Positions 8,169 to 63,573 of a stretch of 64,000 nucleotides of DNA are shown piece by piece. The position numbers and the translations under genes were made by a program. The stretch covers positions 1 through 64,000 of the forward strand of contig CAMAXE010000007.1 in assembly GCA_945862145.1 (NCBI GenBank). The letters run 5' to 3'. The notes under the pieces are model-generated. The model saw only the letters and a program-made list of their open reading frames with translations, was not told where the DNA came from and made no database searches. This DNA is from Klebsiella pneumoniae (GTDB lineage Bacteria; Pseudomonadota; Gammaproteobacteria; Pseudomonadales; UBA5518). The number at the start of each line of letters is the position of its first letter. The first letter of the stretch is position 1.

Positions 8169-9176
8169 ATGCCCCCCCGTATGCGCACTGCGATCACCCT
8201 TCCCGGCCTTGCGGGCACGGTGGCCGATACGATCGCACTGGCGCGCCGCGCCGAGAGCGCCGGCTTCGACGATCTGTGGCTGGCGGACGCCGGCGGCATG
8301 GATGCGCTCACCTTGGCCGCACTGCTCGCCCAAAACACCTCGCGGGTGCGAATCGGTATCGCCGTAGTGCCGGCCTACACCCGCACGCCCGCGGTACTCG
8401 GGAGCACGGCATCAACCATCGCGCAGGCCTCCCATGGCCGCTTCGTGCTCGGCCTCGGCACCTCCAGCCACACGATCATCGAAGGTTGGCACGGGTTGAA
8501 GCTCGACCGCCCGCTCACCCGGATGCGGGAAACCGTGACCGTGCTGCGCCAGATATTTGCCGGCGAGAAAACGCGCTTCACAGGCGAGACCCTGAGCAGC
8601 AACGGTTACCGTCAGGGGGCGGTGCCCGGCGGACAGCCGATTCACCTCGCGGCGCTGCGCCCGGGCATGCTGGAACTGGCTGCGGAAATAGGCGACGGCG
8701 TGATTCTCAATCTCTTCCCCCGCCGTGCGCTGTCACGCATCCGCGAGCACATCGCGCTCGGTGCCGAACGCGCTGGCAAAGACCCCGCAGAAGTCGAGGT
8801 GGTATGCCGGCACCAGATCGCCGTGACGGATCGTCCGCAAGAGGCGCGCGATCTCTTCCGTCGCATTTTTGCCTCTTATTACTCGACACCGGTCTACAAC
8901 CAGTTCCTCGCCTGGTGCGGCTTTGAGGATGCCGCCCGCGAGATCCGCGAGGGCTGGGCCTCGGGCGACCGCGAGCGCACGGCCGCAGCACTGCCCGACA
9001 GCCTGGTCGACGAGATCGCGATCATCGGCACGCGCGAAGAGTGCCAGCTGCGCATCCAGGAATACGCGCAGGGCGGCATCCACACGCACGTGGTGAGCTG
9101 CCTCGGGTTTGAACCGGACGTGGTGGACGCGACCTATCAGGCCTTCACGCCAGAGCACTTCCGCTTCGCGGTTTGA
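8169..9176 (+). CDS. LLM-class (luciferase-like) flavin/F420-type oxidoreductase
   Basis: This 335-residue luciferase-like monooxygenase-fold protein starts at the ATG at 8169, behind GAAGGAACCCACC. Typical features are the N-terminal beta-alpha segment ALARRAESAGFDDLWLAD, a GIAVVPAYTRTPAVLGSTASTI strand-helix, RFVLGLGTSSHTIIEGWHG, and the LTRMRETVTVLRQIF segment common in F420/FMN-dependent members. The flavin and the substrate cannot be assigned from motifs alone. The gene stands alone, divergent from the phosphatase-like gene, and the 99-bp gap between them should hold both promoters. It ends close to the convergent RND pump gene. Confidence 0.85.
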   Translation: MPPRMRTAITLPGLAGTVADTIALARRAESAGFDDLWLADAGGMDALTLAALLAQNTSRVRIGIAVVPAYTRTPAVLGSTASTIAQASHGRFVLGLGTSSHTIIEGWHGLKLDRPLTRMRETVTVLRQIFAGEKTRFTGETLSSNGYRQGAVPGGQPIHLAALRPGMLELAAEIGDGVILNLFPRRALSRIREHIALGAERAGKDPAEVEVVCRHQIAVTDRPQEARDLFRRIFASYYSTPVYNQFLAWCGFEDAAREIREGWASGDRERTAAALPDSLVDEIAIIGTREECQLRIQEYAQGGIHTHVVSCLGFEPDVVDATYQAFTPEHFRFAV

Positions 9177-9188
9177 AGCGCATAGCGC

Positions 9189-12100
9189 TCAGGGCTCGGC
9201 ACGGGCGCCAAGCTCCCGGTCGAGCTGTGCCAAGCGCGCACCGGGCAGCGGAGCCCGTGCGGTAAGCCAGTGGTACATGAGCGGCACCACCAGAAGGCTG
9301 AGCAGCGTGGAGACGATCACCCCGGCGACCACCACCACGCCAATCACGAAGCGTGCCTCGGAGCCGGCTCCGGAGCCGATCACCAGCGGCACCGCGCCCA
9401 TCACGGTCGTCACCGAGGTCATCACGATCGGACGCAGGCGCAGCACCGCCGCATCCAGCACAGCCTCGTCCCGGGCGAGACCCTGGGCGCGCAGCTGGTT
9501 GGCAAACTCCACAATCAGGATGCCGTTCTTGGCCGCCAGGCCCACCAGCATGATGATCCCGATCTGGCTGTAGATATTCAGTGTCTGGCCGCACAGCCAC
9601 AAACCGAGCAGCGCACCGGCCACCGCAAGAGGCACGGTGAGCATGATGATCAACGGGTGCAGGAAACTCTCGAACTGCGCGGCCAGCACCAGGTAGACCA
9701 CCAGCAGCGAGAGCATGAACATCGCATAGATCGAGCCGCCCGAGCGGCGTAACTCGCGCGACTCCCCCTTCAAGTCGGTGACCGCGCGTGGCGGCAGCAA
9801 CTCACGTGCGCTGCGCTCCATGAACGCGATCGCATCGCCAAGCGCGTAGCCGGGCGTGAGGCTGGCCTCGATGGTGATGGCACGTGTGCGGTTGTAGCGG
9901 TTCAGGCTGTCGGCACCGGCGTACTCCTCGATGCTCACCAGACTCGTCAGCGGCACGAGCGCACCGCTCGCCGACGCCCGGACATGGATGTTGCCGAGAT
10001 CGGCGGCCGTCTGTTTGCTCTCGTCGAGGCCCTCGAGGATCACGTCGTATTCCTCACCGTTCATGGTGAAGCGTGTGACCTGCCGCGAGCCGAGCAACGT
10101 CTCCAGCGTACGACCCACGGTTTCGACGCTGACGCCAAGGTCACCGGCGCGGGCGCGGTCCACGGTCACCCGCAGCTGCGGCTTGGTTTCCTTGTAGTCA
10201 TGATCGAGTGCCTGCAGGCCCGGATTCTCCGCAGCGCGCGCGAGGATCAGGTCGCGCCACGTGGCGAGTTCCTCGTAGGTACCGCCGCCAATCACGAAGC
10301 GCAGGGGTTTCTCGAAGCGTCCGCCCAGCCCCTGCGGCATGGTGGGGAATGCGCGCACACCGGGCACCGTGGCCGCGATACCGCCCGCCTCGGCCATCAC
10401 TTCCCAGATCGGGCGCCGCCCGGTGTCCCAATGCGGCAGGTTGATGATCGCGAGACCCTGGTTGAAGTTCTGCGCGCCGCCGAAACCGCCGGGTACGCGC
10501 ATCAGCATGCGTTCGATGTCGCCACGCTCGACCATGGGCATCAGCCGTTTTTCGATCTCGTCGACATGGCGCTGGGTGTACTGGTAGGAGGAACCCTCAG
10601 GCGCATTCATGAACATGAAAAACGAGCCGCGGTCTTCCTGCGGCGCGAACTCTGCCGGCAGCGCGCGATAGAGCACCGCCGATGACACGCTCATCACCGC
10701 GAGCACGCCGAGCGCCAGCGACGGTCGTCGCAACGCCACCGAAAGCCACAGGCGGTAACGCAACTGAGCGCGCGCGAAAAGCCGGCCGAAACCGTGCTCG
10801 CCGTCGCCGCTTTTCAGCAGCCACACGCTCATCGCCGGAGAGAGCGTGAGCGAGACCAGCATCGAGAACAGCACCGCAGCGGCCATCGCCACCGCGAACT
10901 CGGCAAAGAGCCGACCGATCTGGTCCTGCAGGAACGTGATCGGCAGGAACACCGCCACCAGTACCAGCGTGGTCGCCAGCACGGCGAAACCCACCTGTCG
11001 CGTGCCGAGGAACGCCGCAACCAGCGGGCTCTCGCCGGCACGGATGCGCCGGTGAACGTTCTCGAGCACTACGATCGAGTCATCGACCACCAGACCGATC
11101 GCAAGCACGAGCGCGAGCAGCGTGAGCAGGTTGATGCTGTAGCCGAAAAAATACAGCACGATGCAGGTGGCGATCAGCGACACCGGCACCGTAACCGCGG
11201 GAATGATCATGGCCCGCAGATCGCCCAGGAAAAGCAGAATCACCAGCACCACCAACGCGGCGGCGATGCCGAGCGTGCGGTAGACCTCGAGGATGGCGCT
11301 CTCGATGTAGACCGAGGAATCCCAGCTCTGGAGCAGGCGCATGCCATCGGGCAGGGACGCCTCGATGCGCGCGCGCTCGACCTTGACGGCCCGCGCCACG
11401 GCCAGGGTGTTGCTGTTGCTCTGCTTGATGATGCCGATGCCCACCATGGGCACGCCGTTGGCACGGAATTGACGGCGGTTCTCGGCGGGCCCTAGCTCAA
11501 CGGTGGCCACATCACCCAGACGCACCAGATAACCATCGCTGCCCTTGTCCACCACCAGTTCGCGGAAGTCCTGTGCACTGCGGTAGCCGCGCTCGAGGCG
11601 CACCACGAAATCCCGCTCCAGCGAGCGCAACGTGCCCGCGGGCAGCTCGATGTTCTCCCGCTGCAGCACGGCCTCGATATCGGCCACCGTGAGATTACGC
11701 GCGGCAAGCGCACGGCGATCGAGCCAGATGCGCATCGCATAGTCGAGTCCGCCGCTCACCCTGACGCGCGCGACACCGTCGATGGTGGCCAGGCGATCAG
11801 CAACGAACCGGTTGGCGTAATCGGTGAGATCCAGCCGGTCCATGCGCTCGCTCACCAGGCTCAACCAGATGATCACGCGATCGGAGGCATCCTGCTTGGC
11901 GACTACCGGGCTCTCGGCTTCGCGGGGGAGGTCCTTCAGCACCGTGCTGACGCGGTCGCGGACATCGTTGGCGGCGTCGTCGATGTCGCGCGCGAGGGAG
12001 AACTCGATCTCGATGGTCGAACGCCCGTCACCGCTGGTGGACGACACCGCCTCGATGCCCGCGATGCCCGCGATGCGCTCCTCGATGGGCTGGGTGATGC

Positions 12101-57140: not shown

Positions 57141-57389
57141 TCAGCTATGAGCGCGGCCAGCTCTACCGAGGCTCTCCAACCGCTCAGCCAACCACACCTT
57201 GATTACCGATTGCCGCGTAACACCCAGACGCGCCGCTTCCCGATCCAGCGAGGTCACCATCCATTCCGGAAAGTCGACGTTCACCCGGCGTTGGGCCTGA
57301 TTCGGACGCTTGAGTGTCGAGATATCGAGGTCATCCACGATGTCTTCGACTCCTGCGTCAAACTTCTCATCGAACTTCTTAGCTTTCAT
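57141..57389 (-). CDS. brnA: BrnA-type antitoxin
   Basis: This 82-residue antitoxin starts at the ATG at 57389 (MKAKKFDEKFDAGVEDIVDDLD). The C-terminal ribbon-helix-helix has RRVNVDFPEWMVTSLDREAARLGVTR, with a QSVIKVWLAERLE helix. The BrnA family binds BrnT and represses the shared promoter. Its start overlaps the end of brnT, so toxin comes first, as is usual for this family. Confidence 0.88.
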   Translation of the reverse strand: MKAKKFDEKFDAGVEDIVDDLDISTLKRPNQAQRRVNVDFPEWMVTSLDREAARLGVTRQSVIKVWLAERLESLGRAGRAHS

Positions 57390-57642
57390 ACAGCCCCACC
57401 TCGGCGGGTCTTGCCCGCCTGACAGATATGATCCGAACACAGTCGCCCCGGATGGTGATCACTGCCGACCAAATCTTGCCGTCGATCTGTGCAACCACCA
57501 GTGAACGGGGCTCGTCATCCGATCTCGCCTGCACCTCGACGAGGTCTGGGTCGTCCCACAACAGTTGCGCTCGCGCGAAGTCGATGCCGTGCTTCAGGAG
57601 ATTGGCCTGACTCTTGTCGCCATCGAACTCGAATGACGTCAT
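57379..57642 (-). CDS. brnT: BrnT-type toxin (RelE-like RNase)
   Basis: This 87-residue toxin begins FEFDGDKSQANLLKHGIDFARAQLLW and ends with VRIISVRRARPAE, the classic BrnT pattern (FEWD..K...N..KHGV.F..A and RIISAR.A...E). BrnT cleaves RNA and halts growth until neutralised by BrnA. The pair looks complete. Confidence 0.9.
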   Translation of the reverse strand: MTSFEFDGDKSQANLLKHGIDFARAQLLWDDPDLVEVQARSDDEPRSLVVAQIDGKIWSAVITIRGDCVRIISVRRARPAEVGLYES

Positions 57643-58531: not shown

Positions 58532-58771
58532 ATGGCCAGCGCCGCACTTGAACAGCTCAGGGTGAAAGCCTTGGAACTCAGCGAAACCGAGCGCGCAGAG
58601 CTTGCACACGAGCTGGTTGCCAGCCTCGATGGTGATGCCGAGGCAGGAGTGGAGCAGGCGTGGGAGGCGGAGATACTTCGCAGGCTCGATGACGTTGAGC
58701 GGGGAACCGCGCAGGTCCTGAGCCGTGAAGAGTTCAAGCGCCGTATCAGGCAGCACCTGAAGCCGGCATGA
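58532..58771 (+). CDS. Addiction-module antitoxin (TIGR02574-like)
   Basis: This 79-residue protein has the pattern of small antitoxins paired with ParE/RelE toxins: LRVKALELSETERAELAHEL, VASLDGDAEAGVEQAWEAEI and a basic C terminus FKRRIRQHL. It overlaps the downstream toxin by 4 bp (ATGA). Confidence 0.82.
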   Translation: MASAALEQLRVKALELSETERAELAHELVASLDGDAEAGVEQAWEAEILRRLDDVERGTAQVLSREEFKRRIRQHLKPA

Positions 58772-59085
58772 CGCGGGAGGTCGAGATCCTTGTCGAGGCG
58801 GCGTCAGAGGCGGCCGATGCCATCCGATGGTATGAACAAGAGCGCCCTGGCCTTGGTGCGGAATTTGAGTCAGCGATTGATGTCGCGCTAAGCCTCCTCG
58901 AGTCCGATCCCGTCCCATCGGTGCCCACGCTGAGGGTTCCCGGCAGGCGGGGAGTCCGGCGCCTCGTTCTTCGGCGCTTCCCGTTCGATGCGGTGTTTAC
59001 GCTCTCTCCGTCCAAAGCCTTGGTCGTTGTCTTTGCCCACCATTCCCGGCGTCCGGGCTACTGGCAGCATCGAGGTCTTTCCTGA
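58768..59085 (+). CDS. ParE/RelE-family toxin
   Basis: This 105-residue toxin has the ParE fold signature: an early helix AASEAADAIRWYEQERPGLG, AEFESAIDVALSLLESDP, and strands RRLVLRRFPFDAVFTL and LVVVFAHHSRRPGYW. Family members poison gyrase or cleave mRNA. It sits with its antitoxin inside what used to be an ADP-ribosylglycohydrolase gene. Confidence 0.85.
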   Translation: MTREVEILVEAASEAADAIRWYEQERPGLGAEFESAIDVALSLLESDPVPSVPTLRVPGRRGVRRLVLRRFPFDAVFTLSPSKALVVVFAHHSRRPGYWQHRGLS

Positions 59086-59533: not shown

Positions 59534-60499
59534 ATGGGCTCTCTGACGGCCTACCTGCAGGAGCAGTTCAGGACTCAGTGTCCTGCAGGCTGGTCCTGCT
59601 CTGCGGAGCAATCGCTTCTGTCCGACGAGATGTCGGATCTGCTCGGTTACCAATCACGTGCGGACGTCCGTCTATCGCGAAACGACGGCAGTCGGCATCT
59701 CTGGATCGAATTCGAGATCAGCAGGGCAGATCCCGTTGCCAATCATACGAAGTACGGCACTGCCTGCATCTTTGCGCCCAAGGGGCCGGAGCATGCCTTT
59801 GTATCCATGGTGTCCTCGCATATAACCCGGGGCCGGGCAAATCTCGCCGCAGCCTCCGTCTATCTCCTCCGGCGCGCGGGCCTGCACGCGTTTCAGACGT
59901 TGTTGTTTCCACATGTCGCCCCGGAAGAGATCAAGGCTTTCAATGGGCAATCCAAGTCGACTCTGAGCCTCGAAAGGCGTCTCTCCGTTGTACCGGAGAT
60001 CGAGCGGGCCATTGCCGTGTCTGCGCCTGTCCTTCATCAGTACCAGCATCGGATTTACTTTGCCTCGAATACACTCGAAGTCCTTCTGAACGCGCGTCGC
60101 TGGAACGCCCAGATCAAGGAGCAGAGCCTCCGTAACCTGTGGGGGAGGCGAACGGTGACTTACTTCGTATTCGACCCGTTCTCCCGTCAATTCGCGCCCT
60201 CGAAGTTCTGCGGATTCATCTCTTCGGCCATGCTCGGGCCGAGCTTGCAAGGCGAGGAGTCGTGCAGTCCCGGATTGGAACTCATGGGTGTTTCGGATTA
60301 CGCAGCACTCGACGAGTCCGAATCCCGTTTCGACGGCCATTTGGCCAGGAATCATCTCGTCAGAAGGCTCGGATTCAGAGAGATGAAGGAAATGGACGCA
60401 AGCGACTCCTTGCGTACAGCCTTCGCCCGATGGGTCGCGGGCTGTGAGGGCAGCATTCGAGTTCATACAAAGGGAGCTACCCTGTTGCTGGCTCCGTGA
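59534..60499 (+). CDS. Uncharacterised 321-residue protein, possible PD-(D/E)XK nuclease
   Basis: I do not recognise this protein. It is soluble, with no signal peptide or membrane helix. Residues 40-75 (SRADVRLSRNDGSRHLWIEF, then EISRADPVANHTKYG) have an Asp on one strand followed by ExE on the next and a downstream Lys, which could be a variant PD-(D/E)XK core (Asp44, Glu59/Glu61, Lys73). The C-terminal third begins at about VTYFVFDPFSRQFAPSKF. Its base composition is less GC-rich than core genes. It is first in a same-strand run with a HIT protein and an HNH nuclease. Confidence 0.65.
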   Translation: MGSLTAYLQEQFRTQCPAGWSCSAEQSLLSDEMSDLLGYQSRADVRLSRNDGSRHLWIEFEISRADPVANHTKYGTACIFAPKGPEHAFVSMVSSHITRGRANLAAASVYLLRRAGLHAFQTLLFPHVAPEEIKAFNGQSKSTLSLERRLSVVPEIERAIAVSAPVLHQYQHRIYFASNTLEVLLNARRWNAQIKEQSLRNLWGRRTVTYFVFDPFSRQFAPSKFCGFISSAMLGPSLQGEESCSPGLELMGVSDYAALDESESRFDGHLARNHLVRRLGFREMKEMDASDSLRTAFARWVAGCEGSIRVHTKGATLLLAP

Positions 60500-60578
60500 T
60501 CAAAACAAGCGGTCATCCGTCTCGCCGCAGGCCGCTTGAGGAGCTGGTGCAAACGGACGTATTGAGGACTCCCAACGC

Positions 60579-60974
60579 ATGCAACTGCCTCCTTGCCCCT
60601 TCTGTGATGTCGGCCCTGAAAGGATCGTTCTTTCGGATCCATTGGGTGTGGTCATCCGCGATGCCTTCCCCATCGCCCCCGGACATACCCTGATAGTCCC
60701 GCGTCGGCATATAGGCTCATTCTTCCTCGCTACTGAGCAGGAGCAGCAATCGCTGCTGGCACTGTTGCGTGAGGCCAAGGTCGGTCTGGAGTCCGAGTTT
60801 GCGCCAGACGCATGGAACATCGGAATCAACGACGGACCTGCAGCAGGGCAGACCGTTCCGCATTTGCACATACACCTCATCCCGAGATACACGAACGATG
60901 TTCCGGATCCCAGAGGTGGCGTCCGGTGGGTGATCCCCTCCAAGGCCAACTACTGGGGCGGCAACGGTGCCTGA
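60579..60974 (+). CDS. HIT-family nucleotide hydrolase/transferase
   Basis: This 131-residue protein has an N-terminal CPFC zinc-type pair (Cys6, Cys9), APGHTLIVPRRHIGSFF and NIGINDGPAAGQTVPHLHIHL. The histidine triad is His95-x-His97-x-His99. HIT proteins hydrolyse or transfer nucleotides, such as dinucleoside polyphosphates or adenylylated products. The C-terminal VPDPRGGVRWVIPSKANYW is characteristic of one subgroup. It overlaps the HNH gene by 8 bp, so the two are translationally linked. Confidence 0.9.
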   Translation: MQLPPCPFCDVGPERIVLSDPLGVVIRDAFPIAPGHTLIVPRRHIGSFFLATEQEQQSLLALLREAKVGLESEFAPDAWNIGINDGPAAGQTVPHLHIHLIPRYTNDVPDPRGGVRWVIPSKANYWGGNGA

Positions 60975-62094
60975 TCAGATAAGCGACGTTGGCGTCGAGC
61001 GGGCGATTCATGGGTACCGGAGGCATGGTTGTCCACCCTCTGCTGAGGATCGGCTCGGTTTTCTGCGTTTGCTCCAGCGTGTGCTGAACGAGGGTGAGTT
61101 CACCGCCACCTACAAGTTCGCGTTGCTGCAGGCGTTTCTGGATTTGGCCATCGAGTCCCACATTGCGGATGACGCGGAACTTTTCATTACTTATCGCCAA
61201 TTAGCCGAGCGGTTCGTCGAGTACTACTGGAACCACACTGACCCTTACACGATGGACGCGGGTGAGGATACGGTGCTGTTCCAGTCATCCGGTAGGCAGG
61301 CCGCAGTGCTCAGCCAGATCGACGAGGTGCGACGCCGTGGACACCGCACGCTGGCCCAGTTCCGGCGGCTGCCTCGGGAGTACGCATCGCTTCTAGGGCG
61401 CATTGCAAAGACTATTCGCGAGCAACCTGTCAGGTACATGCAGAATCTCAACGGTGAGCGCGTGGACTTCCTGTTCGAGGTCGCTGCGGATGGCATGGGC
61501 ATCCGTCTCTTACGGGGCGTGGCGTGGTGCCTGAAGGAGTTTCACGACCTCATCCAGGACCAGCTCCGGTCTCGCTGGGTTGAACATGTGCGCCGGATAT
61601 CCAGCAACGCCCAATTGATTGGCAATCACAGGGATCTCGAGGTTTTTCTCTTCGGTCAGCAAAGAGCGCATTTGACGAGGGTGCGCGAGGTGCTCTTGGA
61701 GATCGAGGGAGATCGCTGCTTTTACTGCTCGCGACAGATGCGCAACGGCAAGCTTGAAGTTGATCACTTCGTCCCGTGGTCGAGGTACCCGCGTGATCGG
61801 GGTCATAACTTCGTGCTCGCACACGCGGCATGTAACAACCGAAAACGCGACGCCTTGGCCAGTGCGCCGTACTTGGGTAGTTGGATCGATCGTCTCGAAT
61901 CCAAGGGCTCGGATATCACCGCCTCCCTGGGGGGCAGTGTGCTGTGTGAGGCGGAGAGTTCGCGCAAGGTTGCGGCTTGGGCCTACGGCAGCGAGATCAG
62001 CGCTGGAGGGCGGTTCTGGGATGCACGTCTCGAGGGCGATGCGCAGTTTGTTCGCTCGAGTGATGAATTGGTCGCGGTAATCGGACGGTTGTAG
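60967..62094 (+). CDS. HNH endonuclease
   Basis: This 375-residue protein starts at a GTG inside the end of the HIT gene. The N-terminal ~245 residues are helical, with no motif I recognise (TATYKFALLQAFLDLAIESH is typical of some HNH proteins linked to defence loci). A complete HNH centre follows: CFYC (251-254), LEVDHFVPWS (Asp266-His267), Asn281, and LAHAACNNRKRD (His286-Asn290). It should cut or nick DNA. The tight coupling to the HIT protein suggests they act together. Confidence 0.88.
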   Translation: MPDQISDVGVERAIHGYRRHGCPPSAEDRLGFLRLLQRVLNEGEFTATYKFALLQAFLDLAIESHIADDAELFITYRQLAERFVEYYWNHTDPYTMDAGEDTVLFQSSGRQAAVLSQIDEVRRRGHRTLAQFRRLPREYASLLGRIAKTIREQPVRYMQNLNGERVDFLFEVAADGMGIRLLRGVAWCLKEFHDLIQDQLRSRWVEHVRRISSNAQLIGNHRDLEVFLFGQQRAHLTRVREVLLEIEGDRCFYCSRQMRNGKLEVDHFVPWSRYPRDRGHNFVLAHAACNNRKRDALASAPYLGSWIDRLESKGSDITASLGGSVLCEAESSRKVAAWAYGSEISAGGRFWDARLEGDAQFVRSSDELVAVIGRL

Positions 62095-62375
62095 TTGATA
62101 TGCGTGCTGCACGCTGCGGTGGGAGCGACTCCAGCAAATCCTCTCAGCGCACAGGCAGAGCCCGGGGATACACAACTGCGCGACGGGCTCATCCAGCGCT
62201 TCCAGCGCACTTACGCGTTGTCGCACAAGATGCTCAAGCGCCATTTGGAACAGGCGGCCGCCAACCCGCAGGCATACGACACGACTGACTTTAGCACCTG
62301 ATTCGCTCGGCCAATGAGCAGGGTCTTTTGCACAGTGATTGGCCTGTGTGGCGGCGCTTCCGGGAACGGTGCGGA
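62095..62375 (+). pseudogene. HI0074-family (MNT/HEPN-type) protein, frameshifted and truncated
   Basis: From about 62173 the frame reads QLRDGLIQRFQRTYALSHKM then LKRHLEQAAANP, the start of HI0074-type nucleotidyltransferase-partner proteins. It ends at a TGA at 62299-62301. In another frame the homology continues as HLIRSANEQGLLHSDWPVWR then RFRE, after which it is lost. So one indel near 62290-62300 plus a 3' truncation have inactivated it. No partner MNT nucleotidyltransferase is seen. Confidence 0.6.
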
Positions 62376-62397: not shown

Positions 62398-63573
62398 TCA
62401 AATCACCGTTGGCAACAATCCATCCAACAACCCGTCCGCTTTGAGAAGATCAACGGTGTTTTGCTCTTCCACGGCATAAACCCCGCGTGCCGCGCGCCAG
62501 ATCAGCTTTTTGTCCTGCAGGGCGATCAATGCCTGCTGCACTCCGGGCACATCGACCTTCACGTCCTCGGGTAGCTGCCCGGAGAGTTGCATTGCCTTGC
62601 GATACTTTTCCAACGTAGCCGCCTCGAAGGGTGCGTAGTGCTGGTTGGCCGCGGCCATTACCCGCAACACGGCCGACTGAAGGGGAGTGAGGCTATGCAT
62701 CACGCCGCGCTGCACGGCATTCAATTCTTCCGCAAGCCGGCGCACCTCATCGGCAAATTTGTGCGGAACGCTCGCCGCATCCGTCTCAAGATCAAAGCGG
62801 AAGTGATCGGCCGCAGACCCAAGCAACTCGGGGCGATGTCCCGCCTCGACGAACAAGGGCCAGACCTGCGCGGGGTCCAGCGCGAAGGGCAGCTTCACTT
62901 CGCGGCAGAACCAGTCGACGTAGTCTTGCCCTAACAGGGGGAAATTCACCAGAGGTGCTCCGAAAAACGCTTGGTCCTTGCTGTTGCGCAGCATGGCGAG
63001 CTTGTCGCGATTCGATCCGGTACAGACGATGCGCAGTCCGTGGTGCTGGCTGCTGTTCAGTTCATCGCGCGCGGCCTTCAAGGCAAACAGGGCACCGATG
63101 CCGGCATCGGTGGTGATCGCATGCTGCGCCTCGTCGATGATCAGGACGATCATTTGTCCGGTTTCATCTGACAGGGCCACCAAGGCATCGGTCAGCGACA
63201 CCTCTTTGCCCAAACCCACCCGATCGAGGTCGAAGGACACGCTGCCGACAGACAGCTTGCTCACGCCGGCACCCCTCGCCAGCCGCAGCATCACGCCCTC
63301 GTTGCTACCGAGTGATGCGCGAATCGCATTGCTGATGATCGAACCGGGGTCCGCCGAGGGGTTGGCCCACAGGTCCGCATAGACCACAAGCGCCCCCGCC
63401 GATTCCAGAGCAGGGCGCAAATCCTCGCGCACGAAGGTCGACTTCCCGGTTCGCCGCGGCGCCGCCAGAAACACACCCGAACCAGCCGCACTGCCCACTC
63501 CGACCACCAGAATCTGGTCGGCAAGCCGTTTGGCCAATGCAGGGCGATGAAAAATCGGGGCAACTCGGGCCAT
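62398..63573 (-). CDS. AAA ATPase (archaeal/ORC-like ATP-binding protein)
   Basis: This 391-residue protein has Walker A LAAPRRTGKSTFVRE, Walker B MIVLIIDEAQHAI and a sensor-1-like LRIVCTGSNRDKLAML. The C-terminal half looks like a winged-helix region (LTPLQSAVLRVMAAANQHY to VPGVQQALIALQDKKLIWRA). This matches the broad group of prokaryotic AAA ATPases with a C-terminal winged helix, many found in mobile or defence loci. It has an unusual AT-rich repeated sequence directly upstream. The function is not assignable. Confidence 0.85.
   Translation of the reverse strand: MARVAPIFHRPALAKRLADQILVVGVGSAAGSGVFLAAPRRTGKSTFVREDLRPALESAGALVVYADLWANPSADPGSIISNAIRASLGSNEGVMLRLARGAGVSKLSVGSVSFDLDRVGLGKEVSLTDALVALSDETGQMIVLIIDEAQHAITTDAGIGALFALKAARDELNSSQHHGLRIVCTGSNRDKLAMLRNSKDQAFFGAPLVNFPLLGQDYVDWFCREVKLPFALDPAQVWPLFVEAGHRPELLGSAADHFRFDLETDAASVPHKFADEVRRLAEELNAVQRGVMHSLTPLQSAVLRVMAAANQHYAPFEAATLEKYRKAMQLSGQLPEDVKVDVPGVQQALIALQDKKLIWRAARGVYAVEEQNTVDLLKADGLLDGLLPTVI

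Follow-up and report, generated by a model that had tools for sequence, protein, structure and literature searches.

A recurrent pairing of HIT hydrolase and HNH endonuclease genes, probably an unnamed nuclease-based defence module

Introduction

Near one end of the window (the whole stretch of 64,000 nucleotides that was analysed) lie three genes that had been taken, in a reading made without database searches (here called the sequence-only reading), to form a compact cassette of an unrecognised protein with a possible nuclease core, a HIT hydrolase and an HNH endonuclease, and for which a role as an undescribed anti-phage system had been suggested. This raises the questions of whether the three genes really constitute a unit, what such a unit might do, and what part a nucleotide hydrolase would play in it beside a DNA cutter.

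The genes and their setting

The layout is as originally described: gene X (59534..60499, 321 aa) is followed after a gap of 79 bp by the HIT hydrolase gene (60579..60974, 131 aa), which overlaps by 8 bp the gene for the HNH endonuclease (60967..62094, 375 aa, with a GTG start), the ORF coordinates agreeing throughout and all three ORFs being coding and on the + strand. At 58-59%, the G+C content of the cassette lies below the 65.2% of the window, as would be consistent with acquisition. Directly 3' of the HNH gene, and regarded as context lying outside the module, is a truncated NTase_sub_bind fragment (62095..62301, + strand; PF08780, E=7.2e-9, profile positions 21-64 of 126). The description of the surroundings as an island of toxin-antitoxin and dead defence genes holds to the extent of this fragment, a BrnT toxin gene with an antitoxin-like gene (57141-57642, - strand) and an Unstab_antitox gene paired with that of a small protein (58532-59085, + strand; this 105-aa partner matched no family in Pfam). 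A 391-aa AAA-type ATPase gene with weak Pfam matches (62398-63573, - strand) converges on the cassette.

The identification of the HIT protein is secure, its match to PF01230 (E=1.3e-24) being over the Pfam cut-off. Its catalytic motif HLHIH (residues 95-99, 60861..60875, + strand) is intact, and in an alignment of 18 HNH-associated HIT proteins the three histidines of this HxHxH motif (H95, H97 and H99) are invariant; the protein also carries a conserved tail, DPRGGVRWVIPxKAxYW. In a HIT-profile scan of the window's own genome it scored 197 bits, against 37 for the sole other match. On a Paraburkholderia plasmid (L054:4995-5860) a HIT gene of the same subfamily is followed by an unknown gene of 152 aa in the place of the HNH gene.

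The HNH protein consists of a helical N-terminal domain of about 230 aa and a C-terminal HNH domain, the core of which (residues 251-297, 61717..61857, + strand) shows the pattern CxxC, DH, N, CN..K and matches the Pfam families HNH_4 and HNH over their cut-offs (PF13395, 4.5e-7; PF01844, 6.7e-7). The catalytic residues C251, C254, D266, H267, N281 and C289 are intact and conserved in the alignment, and the predicted structure is confident (pLDDT 89.5), its core coming closest in a fold search to the HNH domains of Cas9 (Z up to 7.7 over about 106 residues), so that the designation as an HNH endonuclease is likewise upheld. As regards any closer relation to IscB or Cas9, matches in NCBIfam, PADLOC and the PDB were restricted to the HNH part (approximately residues 230-299), and no RuvC domain was matched in this protein in any of the three.

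Search for the conserved unit

Homologues of the HNH protein were sought by a scan of GTDB contigs, which gave 32 loci, and in PLSDB, which gave 17 records, the fetched loci being annotated by profile. A HIT gene adjoins the HNH homologue in 20 loci besides the window, representing at least seven phyla; in 18 of these it lies immediately upstream, as in the window, while on two Bacteroidota plasmids it lies immediately downstream and the HNH protein is a distant relative. The HIT-bearing rows of the HNH tree comprise Pseudomonadota, Myxococcota, Gemmatimonadota, Actinomycetota, Bacteroidota, Eiseniibacteriota and Krumholzibacteriota, these phylum labels being taken from the records, several of which are MAGs. 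Sequence identities among the HIT proteins correlate with those among the HNH proteins (mirror-tree r=0.50, Mantel p=0.0001, n=15), and the HIT tree also displays reshuffling. The HNH family itself is rare, being present in 4 of 369 sampled genomes of the class (the window's own genome counted), two of the four having distant partial matches only.

The case of gene X is very different. It was matched to no family in Pfam, NCBIfam, PADLOC (above noise) or PHROGs and to nothing significant in the PDB, and just two homologues were found (at loci L025 and L042), with which it aligns over its full length at 41-43% identity, the start MGSL being common to all three. In three overlapping samples of 146, 369 and 398 genomes it was missing from all the other 145, 368 and 397, nor was it present in the phages or viral contigs searched, and the plasmids yielded a single record, a Methylibium plasmid (L042) on which X stands alone; this is the sole homologue found independently of HNH. 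The possible nuclease core attributed to X comes down to a candidate motif picked out by eye in its N-terminal part, D44...E59-F-E61 with K73, which could be a variant PD-(D/E)XK core; it gains nothing from the family and PDB searches just described, nor from the predicted model, which at pLDDT 39 (built from only two sequences) is unusable.

At L025, which belongs to a clade distant from that of the window, X lies directly downstream of the HIT-HNH pair rather than upstream as in the window. It is thus not the case that X homologues never accompany such a pair, which is a finding that would have told against the cassette as first proposed, although at L042 X is found on its own. Adjoining X at L025 there is a HepT-like and Polbeta nucleotidyltransferase pair (8536-9427, - strand); in the window the HNH gene is followed by the NTase_sub_bind fragment.

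These results bear directly on the possibility that X, HIT and HNH act jointly, with X as a sensor or second nuclease. In its favour, X adjoins HIT-HNH in two distant clades and in differing gene order while being otherwise almost absent, and given this rarity the co-occurrence at L025 would not be expected by chance; however, it is a single case (n=1) and one that was found through HNH. X is absent from every HIT-HNH locus other than the window and L025, including the nearest relative (L003), where a DUF3427 helicase gene lies upstream on the same strand instead, and on the Methylibium plasmid it occurs without either partner. A joint three-gene system is therefore considered improbable, and a conserved three-gene cassette is ruled out by the absence of X from all the other HIT-HNH loci. 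What survives of the original proposal is the widely conserved pair: the functional core is a two-gene HIT and HNH module, to which X is likely to be a rare optional accessory.

Association of HIT with other HNH nucleases

A further line of evidence starts from HIT rather than from HNH. A HIT-profile scan of the same 369 genomes, which gave an unbiased sample of the HIT subfamily, found 46 places in 44 genomes, and 41 of these places besides the window were examined. An HNH nuclease is adjacent or fused in eight of these, compared with a chance expectation of about 0.1 in 41 (our own estimate from roughly two PF01844 genes per related genome, rather than a formal test). In just one case (L058) is it of the same family as in the window. 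In four others a second, unrelated HNH nuclease follows directly after HIT (L061:1501-2768, L065:1501-2792, L077:344-1881 and L080:1498-2782); PF13391 was found in both of those tested (L077 and L080), while the L061 nuclease resembles ScoMcrA (5zmm) with E=1.8e-11, through both the sulfur-binding domain and the HNH domain, and a profile seeded with all four nucleases together with ScoMcrA aligned them in one register. Two more are single-ORF fusions of about 330 aa (L087:1305-2312, - strand, and L088:16-1014, + strand), in each of which an HNH domain is preceded by an N-terminal domain and followed by a HIT domain belonging to the same subfamily, and in the last (L095) a protein with an HNH motif, recognised by eye, overlaps the start of HIT. 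At L059 an Mrr-type nuclease lies upstream. Separately from these pairings, three tandem HNH genes with sulfur-binding domains were seen on one strand in a single genome (G190, contig C112, approximately 14.1-16.7 kb; L101, L121, L124, L125).

The flanking DNA, clipped to 1.5 kb, was also compared with that of controls by means of PADLOC models at E<=1e-8; 33 loci of the HNH family supplied 105 segments, and HIT loci lacking this HNH family supplied 113 as controls. The HNH-family flanks matched 148 models and the matched controls 23, which is a strong indication rather than an exact test because the count is by model and several models may match one gene; if anything the comparison is conservative, since in four of the control loci HIT adjoins another HNH nuclease. 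Among the individual neighbours are the DUF3427 helicase of L003, PbeA/PbeC and SspC/SspD on the two sides of the L005 pair, ZorD of Zorya (L029), BREX (L037), CRISPR I-Fv (L039) and McrBC (L040 and L012), together with a C5 DNA methylase (L019) and HipA (L013); a DruE-like helicase (L033) and DndF and DndG beside a methyltransferase and an HNH relative (L034) were also found, the HNH proteins of L033 and L034 being distant relatives only.

It could of course be that HIT and HNH genes merely come together in variable islands, having no joint function and no role in defence, and it is true that members of this HIT subfamily are common, being present in 44 of 369 genomes, and that most of them occur elsewhere than beside an HNH gene. 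Nevertheless, the correlated divergence of the two proteins, the fusions, the repeated pairing with unrelated HNH families and the defence-rich flanks relative to the matched controls all run counter to this, and such an explanation is regarded as very improbable.

Replacement and loss of the partner

In 13 other loci the place of HIT beside HNH is taken by a class I SAM methyltransferase of about 200-280 aa, and the HNH tree requires at least two changes on well-supported branches to account for the methyltransferase partner. Five full-length HNH genes have neither a HIT nor a methyltransferase partner in the flanking DNA examined. In several loci the partner is broken: the methyltransferase gene is frameshifted at L037:7452-7990 and L040:7386-7978 and interrupted by a stop at L049:3651-4238, the adjacent HNH gene being intact in each case, while at L036 the HIT gene is 5'-truncated beside an IS21 element and the HNH reading frame is open. 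Sequencing error is possible in any single one of these cases.

Such observations bear on a toxin-antitoxin or self-restraint scheme, in which HIT would keep a toxic HNH protein inactive (for example by removing AMP or some other nucleotide group) until infection released it. The overlapping genes, the neighbourhood rich in toxin-antitoxin genes and the correlated divergence of HIT and HNH are what such a scheme would lead one to expect, but an HNH gene that needed its partner as an antidote should not persist intact where that partner is broken, as at L037, L040, L049 and L036, or missing, as in the five partnerless cases, nor should the partner be of two unrelated kinds. The survival of HNH without a working partner makes it probable that the partner is something other than an antitoxin, and this scheme as a whole is rated rather unlikely.

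The N-terminal domain and phosphorothioation

If the HNH domain does the cutting, it is natural to look to the N-terminal domain for target recognition. Sequence searches of Pfam, PADLOC and the PDB gave no direct family match for this domain. In the fold search a single match, a weak one, reached into the N-terminal part of the protein, namely ScoMcrA (Z=6.5 over 123 residues, chain 94-250), and the range matched falls within the published sulfur-binding construct of residues 91-260 (PMC6224610). In a profile comparison the invariant Tyr49-Lys50 of the HNH family aligns with the His-Lys/Arg that belongs to the sulfur pocket, a weak result in that its score was reached by 4 of 200 column shuffles; an earlier profile comparison of the domain with whole HNH_2 proteins gave nothing, and no sulfur-binding-domain sequence match was found for the HNH protein in the PDB or Pfam. 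The register is thus suggestive, but the significance is too low for the domain to be identified as sulfur-binding. That it may be a reader of some DNA modification is kept as a lead, and as no more than that because of the Z score and the shuffling result.

Two loci are instructive here. At L005 (1478-10316) the HIT-HNH pair has PbeC/PbeA-like genes to one side and, on the opposite strand, SspC/SspD-like genes to the other, i.e. a nuclease pair inside a phosphorothioation locus, which fits ill with simple restriction of phosphorothioated DNA; that candidate is weakened both by L005 and by the DndF and DndG genes of L034. The absence of DndC from the window's own genome speaks neither for nor against it.

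Proposed mechanism

The best explanation, although it can be held only tentatively, is that HIT and HNH form a defence-island module with HNH as effector, HIT as accessory phosphohydrolase and X as an optional addition. The HNH protein would then be the DNA endonuclease, target recognition would fall to its N-terminal domain, perhaps with chemically modified DNA as the target in the manner of type IV restriction, and HIT, rather than serving as an antitoxin, would process nucleotide products, DNA-end products or cleavage-linked adducts. Judging from the genomic context, the module would be directed against phages or plasmids. Counting against this explanation are the weak resemblance of the N-terminal domain to the sulfur-binding domain, the setting of the L005 pair, the replacement of HIT by a methyltransferase, for which it does not account, and the fact that HIT genes of this subfamily mostly do not adjoin an HNH gene. 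HIT enzymes are capable of chemistry of this kind: aprataxin can take AMP off DNA ends, and HINT1 desulfurates nucleoside 5'-phosphorothioates. The family is best known for clearing nucleotide by-products, and here it is found repeatedly in company with HNH nucleases, beside several different types and fused to another. The pair poses a directly testable question, namely what use a HIT hydrolase is to a DNA cutter and why a methyltransferase can substitute for it.

TehB and thiopurine methyltransferases methylate chalcogen atoms. The small, TehB-like methyltransferase and HIT might have one kind of target in common, namely the altered phosphate or sulfur, either in modified DNA itself or in the nucleotides freed when the partner nuclease cuts it, and the module would then restrict backbone-modified DNA and also neutralise the products chemically; in this specific form the proposal is a distinctly long shot.

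A different role for HIT would be in nucleotide signalling, where it might degrade or make a signal that controls HNH. The window HIT protein matches the PADLOC ThsC model (E=3e-10), and an off-switch role for ThsC in Thoeris II has been proposed by the PADLOC authors (PMC8565338). Beside the window cassette, however, no gene for a cyclase, TIR or SIR2 partner was seen, and a soluble signal has no place either in the fusions or in the pairing with nucleases of the ScoMcrA type, since these read DNA directly. Signalling is accordingly judged unlikely; since one HIT subfamily recurs with several types of HNH nuclease, one of them ScoMcrA-like, a role for HIT close to the DNA cut is more likely.

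Comparison with known systems

No named system with this set of genes was found in PADLOC 2023 or in the open-licence literature searched, in agreement with the sequence-only reading. Its proposal of an undescribed anti-phage system stands in so far as an unnamed, conserved HIT-HNH pair does lie in defence-rich surroundings; the unit has two genes rather than three, and anti-phage activity is suggested by context.

Thoeris II shares with the cassette a HIT family protein (ThsC) and a defence setting, but the partner of HIT here is an HNH nuclease and no ThsA or ThsB was seen, the genes beside the cassette (X, the toxin-antitoxin genes, the NTase_sub_bind fragment and the AAA protein) giving no match to TIR or SIR2. 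Septu has in common with the cassette an HNH nuclease as probable effector, and PtuB models match the window HNH core; the match is mostly confined to that core, however, and HIT stands in the place of the ATPase, no PtuA-type ATPase being found beside HNH (the AAA gene at 62398-63573 runs in the opposite direction and has no PtuA-type Pfam match). With SauUSI-like type IV restriction (PLD-helicase-DUF3427) the link is the DUF3427 helicase gene that precedes HIT-HNH on the same strand at L003, whereas in the window that position is occupied by X. The fusions at L087 and L088 join the same HIT subfamily to an HNH domain in one chain of about 330 aa encoded by one gene, but with a different N-terminal domain and HNH type and in the order HNH then HIT.

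A further comparison is with phosphorothioate-dependent type IV restriction of the ScoMcrA type (SBD-HNH). The window HNH protein differs from it in having no sulfur-binding domain detectable by sequence and no SRA match, and the module differs in the addition of a HIT gene and, at L005, in being surrounded by phosphorothioation genes. In common with ScoMcrA, however, it has an N-terminal helical domain and a C-terminal HNH domain, with a fold match (Z 6.5) over the sulfur-binding region, and at L061 the same HIT subfamily directly precedes a ScoMcrA-like nuclease. The HIT-HNH pair is probably a nuclease-based, type IV-like defence module that has yet to be named, and, if it does restrict phages, one that is widely spread.
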